This document shows positions 3,721 through 41,199 of a stretch of DNA of 64,000 bases, piece by piece. Under the pieces are notes generated by a model, which worked only from the letters and a program-made list of their open reading frames with translations, had not been told where the DNA came from and ran no database searches. A program made the position numbers and the translations under genes. Each line of letters starts with the position of its first letter. Within the stretch, counting starts at the first letter, position 1. The stretch is from Spraguea lophii (Eukaryota > Microsporidia > Spragueidae), in contig LDOQ01000174.1 in the NCBI GenBank assembly GCA_001887945.1, forward strand, positions 62,001 through 126,000. The letters are read 5' to 3'.

Positions 3721-6700
3721 CTATTTATATTCTTTATATAATTCTTTCTCTTTTAAATAAAATAATAAATAACTATCTTCTAATGCTTTATATTTTATAT
3801 ATTTTATCTTTCTTTTACTTATAGATATAGAATATAAATATCTATCAGGTAAAGATATTAATTTTCTAATAAATTTATTATTTATAAAAATACTTCTGGT
3901 AATAGAATAATATAATTTTTTATAATAAAATAGATATAGATTATAAATATTATTATTATTGTTATTGTTAATAATATTGTTGTTAGTAGTATTATTATAT
4001 GATGTATTAATAATATTATTGTTGTCAACTGTATTACTATCAACTTTAATCTTATCATTATTGTTATTAATCTTGTTGTAATATCTTTTATAATTAAAAA
4101 ATAATGGATGTATCTTTCTTCTTATCATCTTATTACATTTATAATATAAATTAATATTATAATCTATATTCTTATGTGCTATAGAATATGGTATAGCATT
4201 ATAATCATTATATATTTTATAACCATAACTATTTATAAGTATTCCACAGTATTTAATATATTTATAAGGATTATAATTATAATGATAATCGATATTATTA
4301 GTGATAATGATGTTATCGTTAGTAGTAATAGTAATATTAGTAGTAATATTGTTATTGTTAATATTAGTAATATTATTATCTTTAATATTGCTATTACTAT
4401 CATTATCACATTTACTATTACACTCATTATCACTAACACTATCATATCGATTATCATTATTACATAGAATATCATCTATATTAAAATTACTTTCTATTTT
4501 ATTATAATTAACTATAAATCCATCTAATGTTTTTATACATTGAAAGAAAGCTTTTATCTCCTCTATATTATCTGTTACTATAATATAATCATCTACATAT
4601 CTTATTATACTACCAGATATAAATATTTTTTTAAAATATTTATTATGAATATATGAATAATATAGATTACATAGAAGTGTAGATAGAATAGAACCTTGTG
4701 GTATACCTCTATTCTGTATATATGTATTATTTTTATAATATATTCTATTTTCTAATAACATGTTACGTATAGAAGATATAATAGATTGTAAATATACTTC
4801 TTTAGTGTATATATTATCCCATATAATTTTATTATTAGTTTTAATATTATTATTGGTTGTGTTGGTAGTAGTAATATTATTATTAGTAATGTTATACGTA
4901 TTACTATTATCTGTATTGTTATTAATATCATTACTATTATAATATCTCTTATTATCATTCTTATTATGATCTTTCTTACTATAATCCATCTTATTATAAT
5001 TATTATTTATATCTAATTCAAATATAGATCTATTAGATATAATACTTTTATGTTTTATAATTAATTTATTATACAATAATTCTATCGTTGAATATTTCTT
5101 AATAGAATATTTATTCTTAGATAATATTTTAGGTATAAGATATAATAGAGTATCTACAGGTATATTATCATAACAATCTTTTATATCTAATTTTAAAATA
5201 TATTTATTCTTAGATGTAGTAATAATGTTTGTAATGTTGGTAGTAGTATTGGTAGTATTATTATATTTCATATCACTTTTATCATTATCTTTATTATCGC
5301 TATTACTCTTATTACAATTACCATCATCATTACAGTTATCACTCCTATTACAATTATTATCTCTATTACTATAATTACAGTTATTATCATTTATAGAATA
5401 TAGATTATGTAATAATTCTTTATAAGATAATATTATATCTTTTCTTTTATTTAGAATATGAGATAATATACTATGTATATCTCTAAGACTATTATTATTA
5501 TATTTTATATTATTATTCTTCATATTAACTATTATTCTATATTTATCTATGTTATTTATATCTTTAGGTATAAGACGTATAGTAGGTAGATTCTTATTAG
5601 TATTAATATTATTAATATTATTTATGTGATTGTTAGTAGTATGATTGGTATTGGTATAATTGGTAGTAATATAGTTATATTTATTATTATTATATTTAGA
5701 TGATTGAAAGAATGATGGTATAATATACTTTATCTTATTTTCATTAATAATATTTTTGTTGTTACCATTATTATCTTCTATGGTATAATTATTCTTTAAA
5801 TATTCTTCTATCTTCTCTTTCTCATATTTATACCATATATCTCTTTGTATATAATACAGTTTGTATTTAGATTTAGTAATCTCTGTAGTATAGAAGAAAT
5901 GTGATATCAAAGGAATATATATCTTAGTAAATAATGCATTAATAAAATATAAAATAAAATTATATCTGTTTATGTATTCTATTCTGTTACATTTATTTTT
6001 AACAGTATGATTGTTATTAGTGATATTATTAGTGGTAGTATGATTGTTAATGCTGTTATCAGTATGTTTGTTATTATACTCTTTATTACAATCATTATCT
6101 ACATCATTATAGAATATTTTAAATTTATTTATTTTAAAATAATTAATAAGCTCTGATATTGTTATATCTTCGTATTTATTTTTAGTAATTAATAATTTTA
6201 TCTTAGATTTTAAAATTATAAAGTTTTTATAATCTATAATATTATTTAATATCTTTTTAGATATAAGAAATATAAAATTTATTATTTTATTATTAGCAGT
6301 ATTAATAGTATTTATATTATTAATATTGTTAGTATCATTATTGGTATTTTGATTATTGATATCATCGTTAACATTTTTATTATTATCATACTTATCACTT
6401 ATGTCATCAGACCTACTACCTATATCCTTACTATCATTCTTACCATCATACTGATCATCATACATATTATCTTTATTGTTAAAATAACTATTAAATATAT
6501 CATTGATATTTAATCTTTCAAATTTATCTATAAATCTATTTATTTTATTTTTCATAAATGGTTTACATTTACATTCTTTGTTTATAAAATCTATAACATT
6601 TAATTTTTTATAAAATATTTTCTTTTTCCATAATACTTTTCTATCTAATGTATAATTATTCTTATTAATAGTAGTATTATTAGTAGTATTGTAGGTAGGG

Positions 6701-7395
6701 TCAGTAAGGTTAGTATTGTTAATATTATTAGTATGTATATTGTTATAAGTATTATTATTATTAATCTTATCAGTCTTATTATTCTTATAATTATCATTAA
6801 TGTTATTACTTATAAGTTTATTATATTTTTTAGTACTATCAATATTACCTGCTAATAATACATAATTGAGATCTTTTTCTATTATATTACATGATGTTAA
6901 TAAAAATATAGCAAAATTATTAGATATTGATTTAAAGAATTGGGACCATTTTTTAGTTTTAAATCTATTGGTAGATGAATTAGGATAATTGACAATAATA
7001 TTTATGTTATCTATATTACTATTATTACTATGATATTTATTGTTAATAATAGTATTATCTATATTATTATTATATTTGTTATAGTTAGATTTCTTATTAT
7101 CAATATTAATATTATACTTTATTTTATCATTATATTTGTTATAATTATTATATCTATTGTTTATTGTATATCCCTGTGTTAATATATTTTTCTTATTATC
7201 TTTTAATAGATATTTTACTGCTGTATCTATTATTTCATTTACTGTTAAATTATTATAATTATATTGTTGTATGTGTTTTTCTATTTGTTTTATAAATATA
7301 GTGGATGTAAATTCTGTATTGGTATAATAGATGTTATGATGATTTAGGAAGTTTGTAAGTGATGTAAAACCAAGAGTGTGGAGAATTTGGTTCAT
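3721..7395 (-). CDS. TERT: Telomerase reverse transcriptase with asparagine-rich insertions
   Basis: The product has 1224 residues and is the catalytic protein subunit of telomerase, which extends chromosome ends in the nucleus. The TERT order of motifs is present: T motif at about 490-530 (IPLISHFFYTTEIT, then RDIWYK); motifs 1-2 at about 605-625 (IRLIPKD...YRIIVNM); motif A at about 732-746 (KLDIKDCYDNIP); motif B' at about 893-905 (RGIPQGSILSTLL); motif C at about 931-940 (IRYVDDYIIV); and a motif D-like KIESNF. The FYxTE motif T is specific to telomerase, so this is not a retroelement RT. Long runs of N, mixed with D, T, I and S, separate these blocks and swell the protein well beyond the conserved core. 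Catalytic aspartates are present in motif A (LDI) and motif C (VDD). CACCC lies just before the start codon. The DNA of the inserts is AAT/TAT/GTT triplet-like. Confidence 0.92.
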   Translation of the reverse strand: MNQILHTLGFTSLTNFLNHHNIYYTNTEFTSTIFIKQIEKHIQQYNYNNLTVNEIIDTAVKYLLKDNKKNILTQGYTINNRYNNYNKYNDKIKYNINIDNKKSNYNKYNNNIDNTIINNKYHSNNSNIDNINIIVNYPNSSTNRFKTKKWSQFFKSISNNFAIFLLTSCNIIEKDLNYVLLAGNIDSTKKYNKLISNNINDNYKNNKTDKINNNNTYNNIHTNNINNTNLTDPTYNTTNNTTINKNNYTLDRKVLWKKKIFYKKLNVIDFINKECKCKPFMKNKINRFIDKFERLNINDIFNSYFNNKDNMYDDQYDGKNDSKDIGSRSDDISDKYDNNKNVNDDINNQNTNNDTNNINNINTINTANNKIINFIFLISKKILNNIIDYKNFIILKSKIKLLITKNKYEDITISELINYFKINKFKIFYNDVDNDCNKEYNNKHTDNSINNHTTTNNITNNNHTVKNKCNRIEYINRYNFILYFINALFTKIYIPLISHFFYTTEITKSKYKLYYIQRDIWYKYEKEKIEEYLKNNYTIEDNNGNNKNIINENKIKYIIPSFFQSSKYNNNKYNYITTNYTNTNHTTNNHINNINNINTNKNLPTIRLIPKDINNIDKYRIIVNMKNNNIKYNNNSLRDIHSILSHILNKRKDIILSYKELLHNLYSINDNNCNYSNRDNNCNRSDNCNDDGNCNKSNSDNKDNDKSDMKYNNTTNTTTNITNIITTSKNKYILKLDIKDCYDNIPVDTLLYLIPKILSKNKYSIKKYSTIELLYNKLIIKHKSIISNRSIFELDINNNYNKMDYSKKDHNKNDNKRYYNSNDINNNTDNSNTYNITNNNITTTNTTNNNIKTNNKIIWDNIYTKEVYLQSIISSIRNMLLENRIYYKNNTYIQNRGIPQGSILSTLLCNLYYSYIHNKYFKKIFISGSIIRYVDDYIIVTDNIEEIKAFFQCIKTLDGFIVNYNKIESNFNIDDILCNNDNRYDSVSDNECNSKCDNDSNSNIKDNNITNINNNNITTNITITTNDNIIITNNIDYHYNYNPYKYIKYCGILINSYGYKIYNDYNAIPYSIAHKNIDYNINLYYKCNKMIRRKIHPLFFNYKRYYNKINNNNDKIKVDSNTVDNNNIINTSYNNTTNNNIINNNNNNNIYNLYLFYYKKLYYSITRSIFINNKFIRKLISLPDRYLYSISISKRKIKYIKYKALEDSYLLFYLKEKELYKEYK

Positions 7396-23478: not shown

Positions 23479-24603
23479 TTATGGTGTTGACACAATTGTT
23501 AATGCTTGATTTAGAATAGCGTTATTTCGATCTTCTAAGGCATTACCCATACTTGCTATCTCAGAGAGTGTTACTTGTTCAACTACCGGTGCAAATGTAT
23601 CGTTAAGAGTATCTAATACAGCCATAACCTGGGTTTCAAGGTCTGCCATAGCGGTATCAACCTCTGCTGTTATATTTGTAATCTCATCATTAGTAACAGT
23701 ATCTAATGCTGTTCTTACAAGAGGCATAATAACGCTGGGATCATATTTATATGGCGTAATTGCAGCATAAACCATTTCATCATCACCAAATATATCATGT
23801 TTAATTTGATTGGATTTTTCATAGGCCTTGGTTATAGTATCATTTATTTTAGAATATAAAATATTGTTATTTCCTTTCATATGATTTTTTACCTTGCTAG
23901 CAGTTTCACGAAGATTAATATGCCCCCTTGAATTTCCATCTTCTTTTATTTCCTCTTCTTCTGGATTCAGTAAATTCATTACCTCATCTTTTAATTCTTT
24001 TCTTGTTTGTTTAACTATTCCATCTACTTCGTTTTTAGTTTCTATATTGAGTTCATTTATTTCTTTTGCTAATTTTTGATCCTTATCTGATTGATCATCT
24101 TTTGTCGGAGTTAGTGGATCTGGCTGAACCGTAGGTCCTGGTGGAGCTGGACTAGGTGTGTTTAATATCGTTGTTAATTCAGTTTCAATAGCCGCATTAC
24201 CCGTATCTATTTCATTTTTTATAAACGTTTTCAGACTATCCATGGTTGCATTTATTAGATCTTTTATTGTGTTTAATGCTGTGTTTATATTACCTGGTAT
24301 TGAATCTGATATTGTTTTTTCACCATTTCTTAAAATTATCAGTAAACTATCAAGGTTAGGTGGATCTATATGTGTTCTCGGAGATATAAGTGATTTGGCA
24401 TACATACCATGTGACATCTGCATATTTTTATTTGGTGTTGGTTTGTTTAAAACATTTCTTTGTGTGTATGGATTTAATTTCTTTATATTCATATTACTTC
24501 TTACGTTGTTATTTTTAAGCTTATATGCATCTTTGGCTGATAACGTATGTATTGTAATAAACATAGATGATAAAATAAAAATATAACAATATAAAGAATT
24601 CAT
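23479..24603 (-). CDS. Secreted acidic, cysteine-free helical protein (candidate spore-surface or host-exposed protein)
   Basis: The product has 374 residues from the ATG at 24603. That start is preferred over an upstream extension because it begins a textbook signal peptide (SLYCYIFILSSMFITIHTLSA, cut likely after LSA) and follows AGCCATTA, as in RPL11. The mature part has no cysteine, a proline-rich linker (PSPAPPGPTVQPDPLTPT), and long amphipathic helices around ELNIETKNEVDG and again near ITAEVDTAMADLETQVM. I recognise no family. The features suit a secreted structural protein such as a spore-wall or polar-tube component, but that is inference. GC is somewhat higher than in neighbours. 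Confidence 0.8.
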   Translation of the reverse strand: MNSLYCYIFILSSMFITIHTLSAKDAYKLKNNNVRSNMNIKKLNPYTQRNVLNKPTPNKNMQMSHGMYAKSLISPRTHIDPPNLDSLLIILRNGEKTISDSIPGNINTALNTIKDLINATMDSLKTFIKNEIDTGNAAIETELTTILNTPSPAPPGPTVQPDPLTPTKDDQSDKDQKLAKEINELNIETKNEVDGIVKQTRKELKDEVMNLLNPEEEEIKEDGNSRGHINLRETASKVKNHMKGNNNILYSKINDTITKAYEKSNQIKHDIFGDDEMVYAAITPYKYDPSVIMPLVRTALDTVTNDEITNITAEVDTAMADLETQVMAVLDTLNDTFAPVVEQVTLSEIASMGNALEDRNNAILNQALTIVSTP

Positions 24604-34945: not shown

Positions 34946-35931
34946 GGGATATTTATATTTTTTATATTTATAGGTTAATTGAAATTTCTATGATTTTTGT
35001 TTCGCTTCATTATCTGGAAGTAGTTTTTTTAAAAAGAAGTTATTAATGTGTATAACGATAATCTTATGAATTATATTTCTTTTTTTTAAATAAATTGAAA
35101 GGAATAATGACATTTTTATTAAAATATATTGTTACATATGACAATAATATTTTGTAACATAAGATAATATAATGGTTACAAGACTTTAGTAATAAGTGTA
35201 TAAAAGGGTTTCATCTACTCTGATAGAAAACAAAAAAAAGGTAATATAAGGTTAATGAAATTATTATAACACCAAACAAATACAAATAAAAAAACCTTGG
35301 AATGATAAATTATAGATTATAAGATATAATGTGTTAGAGCTTGTAAGAATAAAATTAACTTTTTTTAAAAAATATTTTATAAAGTAATAATCATCATTTA
35401 TTTTTTTAATAAATATAGAATATTTTTATTATAAATATTAATAGATCCCAAACGAAGTGGTATTTAATTCCAGGTATATGATTCATGTATATATTTTTAA
35501 TAAAACCTTTTATTTTTATTTGTTCCTTATGTTCTTATAATATTAATACTAAATCCTACGATTATTTATAAACTAATCTATTTAAATAGATAAATAGTGT
35601 ATATCAATCAATTAAAAAGAGAGTAAATGTAAAGTCTCGAATATAACTGGACCAACATTATTTTTCTTACCTAACAAAAAAACCTCATTCAACCATTTAT
35701 TTTAAAAATCCAAATATTTTATAAAAACACGTATCCGTCAAACTTTCCTTAAAAAAACAAATATAAATCAATAAATCATAATTTTAAAAATATTGAATAC
35801 CATATTTATAAAACAAAATAAAAATATTTCCTATAATAACCAATATTTCTATAATCAAATAATATTTAAATAGAAGAATGTATCAAAATATTTACATTCT
35901 ATTTTTTATTTTAAAAATAAGAAATATCCCT
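34946..35931. other. Divergent AT-rich spacer between DCD1 and IRE1
   Basis: Almost 1 kb without a frame that I would support. No tRNA boxes, snRNA motifs or clear repeats are seen. Confidence 0.5.
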
Positions 35932-38136
35932 ATGTTATTCTTTCTGTATGTTATTCATATTTTTTCAATAACATTTCTTATAGAAACTTATAACAGAGTA
36001 TATTTTGTAGATTTAGAATCTATGGAAAAATATTCTATAGATCTTTTACATCTTTATCATAATCAGACGAAAGAGTTAGAAGCAAAAGATCCTGAACAGG
36101 ATAAAATAGTTTTAAATAATAATCTAAGTAATATGATTCATATATCGAAGAGTAAAAATAATTTGGATTATTTTAAATGTAATGTATTGAAAGGATATAG
36201 TAATTCTAAAAAAGAAAATGTGGTAAAAAAACTAAGAATGGTGGATGGTTTAACAAATACGGAGGAGAGAGTAGATTTAGACAATATATTTATAGAATAT
36301 GATTTTTCTAATAAAAATATATTTTATAAAAATAAAAAATATAAGATTATGGATATAAATCAGACACAACAGGATGAATACATGATGAAAATAGAAGAAG
36401 ATGAGAATAATGAAATTAAAGAAAATATAGGTGATGGATTGATAATCCCCGTAGAAAATCAATCTGTTAGAAATATGATATATTTGGGAAAGGATCAAAA
36501 TATATATTTTAAAGATAAACAAGAATATTTTAGATCCGAATTAAATTTATTGGATATTGTAAAATATCCTAGGATAATAGATTATAATTTTATTAGTGCT
36601 GATAGATCATCTAAGTTACGTTACGTGGTTTTTAATAGAAAAATTATATGCATAATACTAATAAGAAGTGAACTTTCGGTGCAAGATATGTTTTCTCATA
36701 CAAAAAGAGTAGAAGAATATATAGATATTCATACTGATAATATAAGGATACATAATCATATAATAAATAATAATATATTAGTAATAGATCAATTTCGAAT
36801 GGAATTGAGAGATGAAGAAAAAATAAGAAATGTGTATATTGCTGAAAATAAAGACGGTTTATATTTTTTAGAAAAAATAGTGAATAATGATAGAATAGAA
36901 ATTTATAAGGAAAAAAGAAGTTATTTTAAAATATATTTTACAGTATTTATTTGTTTGCTTTTGTTTATGCTATTTAGGACACATAATCTCATGAAGAGAA
37001 AAGAGTTATTAGAAGAAAGAAATGGGTTTAAGATATATTTTGGTGAGTTTGATAAGCAGATGGTACTTATAAAGACATTTGATGTCAATGATAATAGAGC
37101 TGAGAAAGAAATTAATATATTGAGAGAACATCATCACCAGAATATTATAAAATATATTTATAGTGAGAAAAGCAGAAAAGAAATATCTTTGATATTAAAA
37201 TTCCATAAAACAAGATTGTGTGATGTTGATATGGAGATCTTTAAACCTAATATTATAATTTTAGTAGAATTATTATATTTTCTACATTCTAAAAATATAT
37301 TTTATAACAATATACATCCTTCTAACATTTATATAGAAAATGATACATTCTATCTTTCAAATTTTGAAGATTCTATATCCATAAAAGAAAATGAAATTTG
37401 TAAAGAAGAAGTAACAGGTATTATTGGGTATAGAAGTAAAGAGTTGATAGAGTATTGTAATCATAACATTGATTTATCGTTTGATGCTATACGAAAAATT
37501 GATATATTTTCATTGGGTATTTTGATTCATCAGGTGTTATATAAGGAACATCCATTTCAAACAGCATTTCATGGAAGAGATGATGAAAATATTTTAAGAG
37601 AAGAAAAAATAATGGAAAATAATTATACACTTAAAACGATAGATAATTATACGCTTAATGATTTAATACATAACATGTTGAAAACTGAATACAGTGAGAG
37701 ATTTGATATTCAGCAGGTAAAAAATCATCCTTATTTTTGGAGTAATGAAAAAATATTTAATTTCTTTTGTAATATCAGTGATTATTTAGAAAATAGGACA
37801 GATGAGAGTGTAAATACAAAAAGATTATTTAAAAGATTAGAAAGAAATAAATTTAAAGTATTTACCGATTCTTGGTCAGATTCTCTGGATGAAAGTATAA
37901 AAAAAGATTTATTTTCCTTTCGACATTATAGCACAACAATAAAAGCTATGCTTAGATCTATTAGAAATAAAGGAAGACATTATAAAGAATTACCAGAAGA
38001 TATAAAATCTATATATAAAGGATTTCCCGATGGATATGTAAATTATTATTTAGAAAAATTTCCTACTCTTTTAATTGTGTGTTATCATTCAGCTAAATCA
38101 GAGAAAGATGATGAGTTATTGAGAGAATTTTATTGA
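35932..38136 (+). CDS. IRE1: IRE1-like ER stress sensor with degenerate kinase and intact KEN RNase domain
   Basis: I place the start at 35932, where ATG follows ATCCCT and opens a signal peptide (LFFLYVIHIFSITFLI), giving 734 residues. A luminal part runs to about 330, then a membrane segment (FTVFICLLLFMLF, about 335-350). A kinase-like domain at about 362-602 has lost its catalytic signature: the HRDLKPHN position reads YNNIHPSNI, and DFG reads NFE. The C-terminal RNase domain (about 603-734) keeps the family core, including FRHYST (Tyr) and RNKGRHYKELP (Arg, Asn, His of the RNase site) and ends in YH-aromatic residues. It would sense unfolded protein in the ER lumen and cut RNA in the cytosol. 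RTCB follows 70 bp downstream on the same strand. Confidence 0.9.
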   Translation: MLFFLYVIHIFSITFLIETYNRVYFVDLESMEKYSIDLLHLYHNQTKELEAKDPEQDKIVLNNNLSNMIHISKSKNNLDYFKCNVLKGYSNSKKENVVKKLRMVDGLTNTEERVDLDNIFIEYDFSNKNIFYKNKKYKIMDINQTQQDEYMMKIEEDENNEIKENIGDGLIIPVENQSVRNMIYLGKDQNIYFKDKQEYFRSELNLLDIVKYPRIIDYNFISADRSSKLRYVVFNRKIICIILIRSELSVQDMFSHTKRVEEYIDIHTDNIRIHNHIINNNILVIDQFRMELRDEEKIRNVYIAENKDGLYFLEKIVNNDRIEIYKEKRSYFKIYFTVFICLLLFMLFRTHNLMKRKELLEERNGFKIYFGEFDKQMVLIKTFDVNDNRAEKEINILREHHHQNIIKYIYSEKSRKEISLILKFHKTRLCDVDMEIFKPNIIILVELLYFLHSKNIFYNNIHPSNIYIENDTFYLSNFEDSISIKENEICKEEVTGIIGYRSKELIEYCNHNIDLSFDAIRKIDIFSLGILIHQVLYKEHPFQTAFHGRDDENILREEKIMENNYTLKTIDNYTLNDLIHNMLKTEYSERFDIQQVKNHPYFWSNEKIFNFFCNISDYLENRTDESVNTKRLFKRLERNKFKVFTDSWSDSLDESIKKDLFSFRHYSTTIKAMLRSIRNKGRHYKELPEDIKSIYKGFPDGYVNYYLEKFPTLLIVCYHSAKSEKDDELLREFY

Positions 38137-38206
38137 TTATTTTTGATTATAAAAGTTATTTAATTCTTATGGATAATAAAATATATTATAATTTTTATAT
38201 TATCCC

Positions 38207-39550
38207 ATGACGATAATAGAAGAAAAAAACCACAAGATAAAAAATATTTATAAATCGAAATCAATAGATTTAGAAATTTTAACAGATGAAAAAATAGATG
38301 AAATTTCAGTAGAACAACTGGAAAATATAACTACTATTCCCAAGGTCAAAAAGGTTGTAGTGTTACCAGATATACATGGAGGTTATTTCTTTCCTATAGG
38401 ATGTGTTGCTGGCATAGAAGATTACATTGTTCCAGAGGGTGTTGGATATGATATTAACTGTGGTGTTCGTGTACTAAGAACTGGTGTTCTTGCCGATAAA
38501 TTTCTAGAAGTTAGAAATGAATTGGGAGAAGCAATCAGAAAAAAGATACCATCTGGAATGTATGATAAAAAAAATAAAAAAAACAGTGATGGTTTTTTAA
38601 ATAACATAGATTTACAAACATTAAATAAAATACTGGATGTTGGATGTGATGCACTAAAAGAATTTGGAATAGATAGTAGTTATGTAGAAAATAATGGTTC
38701 GTTGCTTGGTAATAGTAGAATTATAAGTCAGAAAGCAAAAAGTAAAGGTTTGAAAGAGTTAGGTTCTTTAGGAAGTGGAAATCATTATTTAGAAATACAA
38801 AAGATTGAAAATATATTAGATAAAAAGATAGCTGATACGTTAAATATTAAAGAAAATGAAATAATTGTTATGATACACACAGGAAGTAGAGGAGTAGGAC
38901 ATCAGATTCTAACAGATTTTAAAAATATATCATCAGACGTATATTTCGATATAAATTCAGAAAATGGGAAAAAATATATTCAAATGATGAACAGTGCAGC
39001 CAATTTTGCTTTTGCCAATAGAGCAGTAATTACAGAAAGAGTGAAAGAAGTTTTTAAAAAATTTTTTGATGTTGAAATAGCACTGATTTATGATGCTAGT
39101 CATAATATTGCATCACTTGAAAAAACATATATCAATGGAGAACAAAAAAATATTGTAATCCACAGAAAAGGTGCAGCAACAGCACAATCATCTTTAGATA
39201 ATTTACCCTCACCGTATAATTTATTAGGACAGCCAATACCAATAGGAGGCTCTATGGGAACAGCATCATATATTTTAGTTTCAAATAAAACTGATATATC
39301 TCTTTCTAGCTGTGCACATGGTGCTGGAAGGATTATAGCAAGAAAAGATGCCAAGAACAAATATACACCAGAAGAAATAAAAAATTACTTAGAATCAAAA
39401 AATATTGTTGTTCTTGCAAACGATAAAGAATTATTAGAAGAAGCACCACAAAATTATAAAGATATTGATAAAGTTGTAGAACAATTAGAAAATAAGAATA
39501 TTATAAAAAGAGTATGTAGATTATTACCTCTACTTGTTATTAAAGGATAA
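38207..39550 (+). CDS. RTCB: RtcB, 3'-phosphate RNA ligase
   Basis: RtcB joins 2',3'-cyclic phosphate and 5'-OH RNA ends, as in tRNA exon joining and XBP1 mRNA splicing in animals. The 447-residue product has all family blocks: DIHGGYFFPIG, GVGYDINCGVR (Mn-binding Cys), LGSLGSGNHYLE, MIHTGSRGVGH, HRKGAATA, GGSMGTASYI, and SSCAHGAGR with H371 as the GMP-accepting histidine. The length is closer to archaeal/eukaryotic than to short bacterial forms. CCC directly precedes ATG. Common yeasts use the unrelated ligase Trl1, so RtcB in this fungal relative is notable, and its neighbour IRE1 suggests a shared role. Confidence 0.96.
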   Translation: MTIIEEKNHKIKNIYKSKSIDLEILTDEKIDEISVEQLENITTIPKVKKVVVLPDIHGGYFFPIGCVAGIEDYIVPEGVGYDINCGVRVLRTGVLADKFLEVRNELGEAIRKKIPSGMYDKKNKKNSDGFLNNIDLQTLNKILDVGCDALKEFGIDSSYVENNGSLLGNSRIISQKAKSKGLKELGSLGSGNHYLEIQKIENILDKKIADTLNIKENEIIVMIHTGSRGVGHQILTDFKNISSDVYFDINSENGKKYIQMMNSAANFAFANRAVITERVKEVFKKFFDVEIALIYDASHNIASLEKTYINGEQKNIVIHRKGAATAQSSLDNLPSPYNLLGQPIPIGGSMGTASYILVSNKTDISLSSCAHGAGRIIARKDAKNKYTPEEIKNYLESKNIVVLANDKELLEEAPQNYKDIDKVVEQLENKNIIKRVCRLLPLLVIKG

Positions 39551-39948: not shown

Positions 39949-41199
39949 TTATTTTTTATTTATTATTTTAGTTGTTAAATTTTCTATTCTTACTCTACTT
40001 GGTTCATCTTCAAACATTTTTAAATATGTATCTCTTATATATTTCAATAAACCTATGAATCTTTCTTTGTATTCTTCTAACATTTTATCTCCTAGCACAG
40101 ATAGAAAACTTTCTAAAACATAAAAACTAGAATGGTTGGGTTCAACATTTAACAGGCCTGCTAAAAAGAACCAACTTTCTTTAAGATTATTTTTTATATC
40201 TAATAATCCAAAATATATAAGATATACACCTTTAATACTCTTTTCTTCAATTTTGGATGTAATTATTTTATTTTTAAAAATTAAACATAAAGAATCAAAT
40301 GTTTTTTCTTGATCATATATTTTTGATAGAAGGTATGCGTAACTTTTATATGAATCTTTGTGTTGTGATACCTGCACTCTTGCTTGTTCTATAATTTTAT
40401 TAGATAAATATTCCATAAAAATGTAACTGTTTTTAATAGGATCAAGTGTCTGTATTATTTTATCTATTTGATTGGTATCTGTTGTTATTTGTGATACTCT
40501 TTTAGAAACCGTTAAAATTATTTTGTTTTGTTGTCCTTTCTGTATTTTATTTCTATCATTTTCTATTAATTTTAAAATGGTTGAATATTCCTTTGTATTT
40601 ATTGATGTGTCGATGAAATGTTGTGTTAATGGAATATTAGTGAATATTGTTTCTTCTTTTGTTGAATTATCTATGTTTGGTTGTTCTGTATCTTTATCAT
40701 GGCTATGATTTTCAACTTCTGTCTGGGTTGGTATATTTAGTTGTTCTGATTTATCACTATTATCAGATACTGCTGAAATGGGAGTCTCTTCTTTTTTTTC
40801 TATTTCCTCTGTAAAAATGGAACTTGTGGACTTTTTCAAAATATCAGCGAATGGATTTTTGTTATTTGCAAGAGTTTTACTAAAATCAATATTTGATATT
40901 TTATCTTTTGCTGTATTATTTTGAAAACTAAAATTATTTTTACTTTCAAAAAATTTTGTTTTAGGACTTTTGTCTTGTTTTATAAAATTATTTGAATATT
41001 TTGGTTGATTTATTTTTTTTTCCTGAATTTTATTTTTATTTATTTCTTTGTTATACATTTCCAATCCTATTTTATAAACCAATTCCTTAAATTCTTTGTT
41101 CCATTTTTCTCTATCTATTTTTAATTGTTCTAATTTTTTATTCAACGTTTCAAATTTCCTTTCGTCAATTTTGCGAAACTCTTCATCGATATCTCGCAT
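39949..41199 (-). CDS. GLE1: Gle1, mRNA export factor at the nuclear pore
   Basis: Gle1 with InsP6 activates the DEAD-box ATPase Dbp5 on the cytoplasmic face of the nuclear pore. The product has 416 residues. An N-terminal coiled coil is at about 1-60 (RKIDERKFETLNKKLEQLK), followed by a low-complexity region with PTQTEV-like repeats. The C-terminal GLE1 domain is at about 205-416: KRVSQITTDTNQIDKIIQTL, then YIFMEYLSNKIIEQARVQV, corresponding to the Y.YIL..LAK.IV.QAE block of the family. CCC directly precedes ATG. Confidence 0.85.
   Translation of the reverse strand: MRDIDEEFRKIDERKFETLNKKLEQLKIDREKWNKEFKELVYKIGLEMYNKEINKNKIQEKKINQPKYSNNFIKQDKSPKTKFFESKNNFSFQNNTAKDKISNIDFSKTLANNKNPFADILKKSTSSIFTEEIEKKEETPISAVSDNSDKSEQLNIPTQTEVENHSHDKDTEQPNIDNSTKEETIFTNIPLTQHFIDTSINTKEYSTILKLIENDRNKIQKGQQNKIILTVSKRVSQITTDTNQIDKIIQTLDPIKNSYIFMEYLSNKIIEQARVQVSQHKDSYKSYAYLLSKIYDQEKTFDSLCLIFKNKIITSKIEEKSIKGVYLIYFGLLDIKNNLKESWFFLAGLLNVEPNHSSFYVLESFLSVLGDKMLEEYKERFIGLLKYIRDTYLKMFEDEPSRVRIENLTTKIINKK

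Follow-up and report, generated by a model that had tools for sequence, protein, structure and literature searches.

In the microsporidian Spraguea lophii, a gene for an IRE1-type protein that looks like a pseudokinase joined to a well-kept ribonuclease (RNase) domain lies 70 bp from a gene for the RNA ligase RtcB. Both genes are in a 64,000-nucleotide (nt) stretch of contig LDOQ01000174.1 (assembly GCA_001887945.1, positions 62,001 to 126,000), hereafter the window, whose coordinates are used below. The firmest new point of the analysis is the IRE1-type protein itself, in which, as judged from alignments, the kinase motifs appear lost and the RNase domain is strongly conserved across three related proteins. 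Around this point we build an explanation that we favour with somewhat less than even confidence, namely that the kinase-dead IRE1 cuts a bZIP messenger RNA (mRNA), that RtcB seals it, and that the adjacency of the two genes is probably neutral.

The first-pass annotation had placed the two genes next to each other, head-to-tail and 70 bp apart, and the open reading frames (ORFs) confirm this arrangement on the + strand, with the gap at 38137–38206. The IRE1-type gene (35932–38136), identified by Pfam and structure matches and by a CCC start signal, encodes 734 residues from the ATG at 35932 to the stop at 38136. It is held in a longer open frame of 752 residues (35878–38136, + strand), whose numbering is followed here. 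The second ATG of this frame, at 35932, is likely the start of the gene: the N-termini of two relatives align there and the CCC signal (35928–35930) is located just upstream. The RtcB gene (38207–39550) encodes 447 residues and has its own CCC (38204–38206) directly before its first ATG. The family assignments made earlier also hold. The IRE1-type protein matches Pkinase (77.8 bits, residues 398–620) and Ribonuc_2-5A (PF06479; 110 bits, residues 627–752), and its best solved structures are human IRE1 (about 1e-31) and yeast IRE1 (1e-30); the RtcB protein matches the whole Pfam profile with 408 bits, and its best solved structure is an archaeal RtcB (3e-79). Profile searches of the genome (5,273,041 bases) returned one match each for RtcB and Ribonuc_2-5A.

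The kinase-like domain (residues 382–620, 37021–37737), whose alignment with human IRE1 begins at residue 382, appears to have lost its catalytic motifs. In this alignment, the HRD position reads Y-N-N (37303–37311), with the catalytic aspartate replaced, and the DFG position reads N-F-E (37360–37368), with the metal-binding aspartate replaced. The ATP-binding lysine K399, the helix-C glutamate E411 and the loop asparagine N483 are still present. The domain thus looks like that of a pseudokinase, in which nucleotide binding may persist and phosphoryl transfer is unlikely. The RNase (KEN) domain that follows (residues 627–752, 37756–38133) retains Y684, R696, N697 and H701, the equivalents of the four catalytic residues (Tyr, Arg, Asn, His). 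Hydropathy peaks at residues 17–35 and 348–366 predict a probable signal sequence in the hydrophobic N-terminus (35932–35982) and a single transmembrane segment (36919–36975). The predicted lumenal part between them has no accepted Pfam match, and an AlphaFold2 model of the IRE1-type protein, built on a three-row alignment, has a mean predicted local distance difference test score of 35, too low for use.

A search with residues 560–752 found two further proteins at E<=0.01 among 263 candidates, P0124 and P0125, the latter named 'IRE kinase' of Tubulinosema ratisbonensis. All four RNase residues are kept in the three proteins, and the kinase motifs are replaced in each, as YNN/NFE in P0124 and YTS/NFD in P0125; the DFG columns are split by a gap in the three-protein alignment, where NFE, NFE and NFD were taken by eye. 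Identity among the three is 50–59% in the RNase domain, 25–37% in the kinase-like part and 18–26% in the lumenal part. Because the RNase domain is the best conserved of the three parts, it, rather than the kinase, appears to be what selection keeps. The distance to human IRE1 is about equal for the two cytosolic domains (31% and 28% identity). The hydropathy scan, at a cut-off of 1.6, gave no peak in P0125. A whole-length homology search returned the protein itself and two weak kinase matches; since it missed P0124 and P0125, its failure to find further IRE1s carries little weight. No microsporidian pseudokinase IRE1 is named in the paper listings searched, which cover few subscription journals; PMC8104961 left 'difficult to place microsporidian RNases' out of its IRE1 comparison.

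The RtcB protein has a full-length domain, and its Cys and His motifs agree with those of the archaeal enzyme at positions that we take to be catalytic, so that the active-site motifs are kept. In an unrooted tree of 31 sequences, hand-picked among 120 RtcB matches listed of 7948, it lies on the side of Binucleata, Conglomerata, Encephalitozoon and Ordospora (support 100/99), which holds 16 rows including that of the window, six of the other rows being named microsporidian; its branch is long (1.45) and its exact place within the tree is unsure. RTCB in microsporidia has already been published (PMC13247085).

The clear day job of this ligase is tRNA splicing. Introns are carried by 4 of the 57 tRNA genes found, these being all the Tyr(GUA) and Ile(UAU) genes in that set, at loci L042, L043 and L062, L071 (Ile(UAU) pair and Tyr(GUA) pair; ARAGORN and reading by eye). 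One and the same 43-nt intron interrupts the two tRNA-Ile(UAU) genes; the other two were called Ile(gat) with a 13-nt intron by ARAGORN and by eye show a Tyr(GUA) anticodon followed by a short intron, and the 57 include no further Tyr gene. The genome also encodes a tRNA intron endonuclease (52.4 bits in a profile search). The Trl1 kinase and T4-type ligase domains have no match in the genome, an absence left unproven by weak controls, of which one rang only below the cut-off, in E. coli, and the other nowhere; the Trl1-type ligase that the first-pass annotation had named as a possible alternative joiner accordingly went unmatched, with absence unproven to the same degree. Archease, the partner of RtcB in the animal ligase complex, likewise has no genome match, with a control that rang in 6 of 14 genomes. 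RtcB is the only RNA ligase recognised in the genome. It is also present in Encephalitozoon cuniculi (P0067), for which a kinome paper (PMC2078597) lists Ire1p as not conserved; a conserved role of RtcB independent of IRE1 follows from this pair of observations, and its job in tRNA splicing is probably both independent of IRE1 and essential. Given the tRNA introns, the endonuclease and an RtcB reported without IRE1 in E. cuniculi, RtcB alone is no sign of mRNA splicing.

Two bZIP genes, L002 and L003, exceed the Pfam cut-off. L002 (bZIP_1, 33.2 bits; closest solved structures JUN-type) is an ORF of 96 residues on another contig than IRE1 and RtcB (G000:C43, 20400–20690), with a CCC before its ATG; L003 has no CNGCNG site. 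Weak further matches were seen for bZIP_1 in L004 (17.6 bits) and bZIP_2 in L008 (12.5 bits). The sequence CGGCAG is located near the 3' end of the L002 ORF, and CTGCGG starts 29 nt past its stop. A cut after the third base of both sites (CNG/CNG) would remove 81 nt (G000:C43:20641-20721), stop included, and yield a joined frame ...QWNS-ADFSQVKDINEALFF of 95 residues, in which the protein is extended past the former stop (candidate spliced unit G000:C43:20400-20768). The new tail is the best of three frames (3.57 vs 1.07 vs -3.53 bits) and coding-like against shuffles (p 0.007, one uncorrected test), and the stretch from the first stop to the 3' cut is not coding-like (-0.95 bit per codon vs its own composition). 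GC content drops: the tail has 26.5%, the 200 nt beyond the second stop 7.5%. L002 alone among 101 sampled ORFs has CNGCNG both in its final 150 nt and in the 200 nt that follow the stop; it entered the sample through the retrieval of bZIP genes. The sample (194,298 bases, <4% of the genome) is non-random, comprising the window and stretches fetched for tRNA, bZIP, Prp8 and other matches. For the counts of gaps, CNGCNG sites, hairpins, open frames and GC, L001-L003, L005-L007, L009 and L041-L043 were excluded for overlap with other stretches, and the hairpin, open-frame/GC and twin-hairpin surveys also excluded the later tRNA loci L047-L071.

Several observations weigh against L002 as the spliced target. 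The first-pass annotation had called for a bZIP gene with twin CNGCNGN-type hairpin loops; the two CNG/CNG sites are in the right places, but twin 7-nt hairpins are absent. The 5' site is in an 8-bp hairpin with an 11-nt rather than a 7-nt loop (-3.4 kcal/mol, a stability reached by 18% of 136 background sites), and the 3' site is in no hairpin. The fold of the region is no more stable than that of shuffled sequences (z -1.03; whole gene +1.25), the two sites are paired to one another in the structure of lowest energy, and a third CNGCNG, in the basic region, would not fit. Strict twin hairpins were found nowhere in the sample, L002 included, and at the bZIP loci no Rfam model exceeded its gathering score, one match being at chance level. 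In addition, the L002 frame stays open in place for 25 codons past the stop without splicing, 17 of 90 genes have at least 26 open codons beyond the stop, and 5 of 89 other genes reach the same GC content directly past the stop, a tRNA gene adjoining in three of these cases. Finally, the 5' site shares bases with a GTAAG, and the genome encodes a Prp8-type protein, so that L002 may have a spliceosomal intron, or none. Since L002 lacks the 7-nt hairpin loops by which HAC1/XBP1 sites are defined, it is only a candidate, and on its sequence a weak one, for a HAC1/XBP1-type target.

The explanation that we favour would run as follows. Two separately started neighbour genes would supply an IRE1-type RNase of the endoplasmic reticulum (ER) membrane without kinase catalysis and the sole recognised RNA ligase. 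Under ER stress the lumenal part would cluster IRE1, and the pseudokinase, perhaps nucleotide-bound, would act solely as a scaffold for dimerisation, like that of RNase L. The RNase would then cut the CNG/CNG sites of a bZIP mRNA, for which G000:C43:20400-20768 is the candidate, and RtcB would join the cut ends, with the 81 nt that hold the first stop codon removed. A metazoan-like reading of the pair, as first proposed, is possible: the adjacent IRE1-type RNase and RtcB, and the lack of a Trl1 match, agree with it. The lost kinase motifs and the independent tRNA job of RtcB had been missed. The broader proposition, that some microsporidia have a minimal unfolded protein response in which kinase-dead IRE1 and RtcB, otherwise a tRNA ligase, splice a short bZIP mRNA at CNG/CNG outside classical twin hairpins and without phosphorylation, we consider rather unlikely, though well within reach.

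The most serious competitor, which we regard as quite possible although we would not expect it to be right, is that IRE1 carries out regulated mRNA decay only, as in fission yeast, that RtcB serves tRNA splicing only, and that their adjacency is chance. The RtcB of E. cuniculi, reported without Ire1p in PMC2078597, agrees with this division of labour, as do the tRNA introns and endonuclease, the separate start signals of the two genes and the lack of a strict twin-hairpin target in the sample; RNase L, likewise a pseudokinase, is described in PMC8104961 as a promiscuous cutter. Yet L002 is a bZIP gene whose two consensus sites are suitably placed. The interface residues point to neither side. 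Aligned through human IRE1, with the yeast Ire1 numbering that we presume to apply, the equivalents of yeast residues 992 and 1059 are N632 and G699 (N/G and S/G in the relatives). At yeast positions 988/992/1059, PMC8104961 gives E/D, K/R and Y for splicing-type enzymes and any residue, D/E and K/R for decay-type enzymes. N632 and G699 match neither pattern, which counts against the bZIP-splicing explanation and, through the missing D/E plus K/R tied to decay-type enzymes, against decay alone. It is improbable, in our estimate, that L002 has a conventional spliceosomal intron, or simply terminates at the first stop, with the CNGCNG pair due to chance and IRE1 acting on another spliced target. 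The GTAAG with the Prp8-type protein, the commonness of open frames past the stop and the lack of twin hairpins speak for it; but the frame into which the longest GTAAG-to-AG joins would lead scores 1.07 bits against 3.57 for the CNG/CNG join, and the GC content drops directly after the predicted second stop.

Co-transcription or co-regulation that would make IRE1 and RtcB a functional unit seems very improbable. Their gap is the tightest of the 34 same-strand pairs sampled, and the only one of 70 bp or less (71 neighbouring ORF pairs, ORFs below 80 residues ignored); the second-smallest same-strand gap in the window, which has 18 such pairs, is 125 bp. A CCC-type start signal has been described for T. 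ratisbonensis (PMC6675976). In the window, 23 of 30 genes have an ATG in their first 40 codons with CCC or GGG no more than 15 nt upstream, and in 18 of 30 the first ATG has this signal, as against 16 of 254 internal in-frame ATGs (30 of 37 ORFs surveyed, excluding a telomerase-like ORF and six others that were small or overlapping). A single start signal shared by the two genes, as in an operon-like unit, was not found, CCC being present before both ATGs. Since each gene has its own signal, neither co-transcription nor the co-regulation suggested earlier is supported; the adjacency is probably neutral. Hardly credible at all is that the IRE1 gene is decaying and without function. Its kinase motifs are lost and its lumenal and kinase-like parts evolve fast, but the 734-residue frame is uninterrupted, and the RNase domain and its catalytic residues are kept in three of the three proteins compared.

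A lineage whose RNase appears to be under strong selection and whose kinase catalysis appears dropped is a natural test of the need of IRE1 for kinase activity. With RtcB as the only recognised ligase, it also puts to the test whether the sealing of IRE1-cut mRNA by RtcB predates the animal pathway.

Elsewhere in the window, the next large ORF past RtcB (39949-41199, - strand) matches the mRNA export factor GLE1 in its C-terminal part. A 1224-residue ORF (3721-7395, - strand) is a telomerase reverse transcriptase, with telomerase RNA-binding (58 bits) and reverse transcriptase (36.5 bits) domains and long Asn-rich stretches. A 374-residue ORF (23479-24603, - strand) has no Pfam match; its N-terminus is hydrophobic, and it is possibly a secreted or spore protein. 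The microsporidian small-subunit ribosomal RNA model has no match in the 5.27 Mb assembly and rings in 9 of 14 control genomes; within the analysis, the microsporidian affinity accordingly comes solely from the relatives of IRE1 and RtcB and from the CCC/GGG signals.

Like the metazoan IRE1-XBP1-RtcB system, S. lophii combines a predicted ER-membrane KEN-domain RNase with RtcB, no Trl1 found, and a bZIP gene with two CNG/CNG sites; unlike it, the kinase motifs are lost, twin 7-nt hairpins are absent, Archease was not found, and splicing is predicted from sequence. Yeast Ire1-HAC1-Trl1 shares a fungal-lineage IRE1 and an intron that, in the candidate here, contains a stop and leaves in frame (the yeast HAC1 intron is 252 nt), whereas here RtcB replaces Trl1, the kinase motifs are lost and the interface reads N/G vs K/Y. 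RNase L has a pseudokinase joined to the same RNase domain, but carries ankyrin repeats in place of the signal sequence and transmembrane segment predicted here; no ankyrin family is among the Pfam matches of the S. lophii protein. The 'IRE kinase' of T. ratisbonensis, although its kinase-like part is too diverged for a Pfam kinase match, is the closest named relative, having likewise lost its kinase motifs (YTS, NFD) and sharing the same RNase motif, RNKGRHY.

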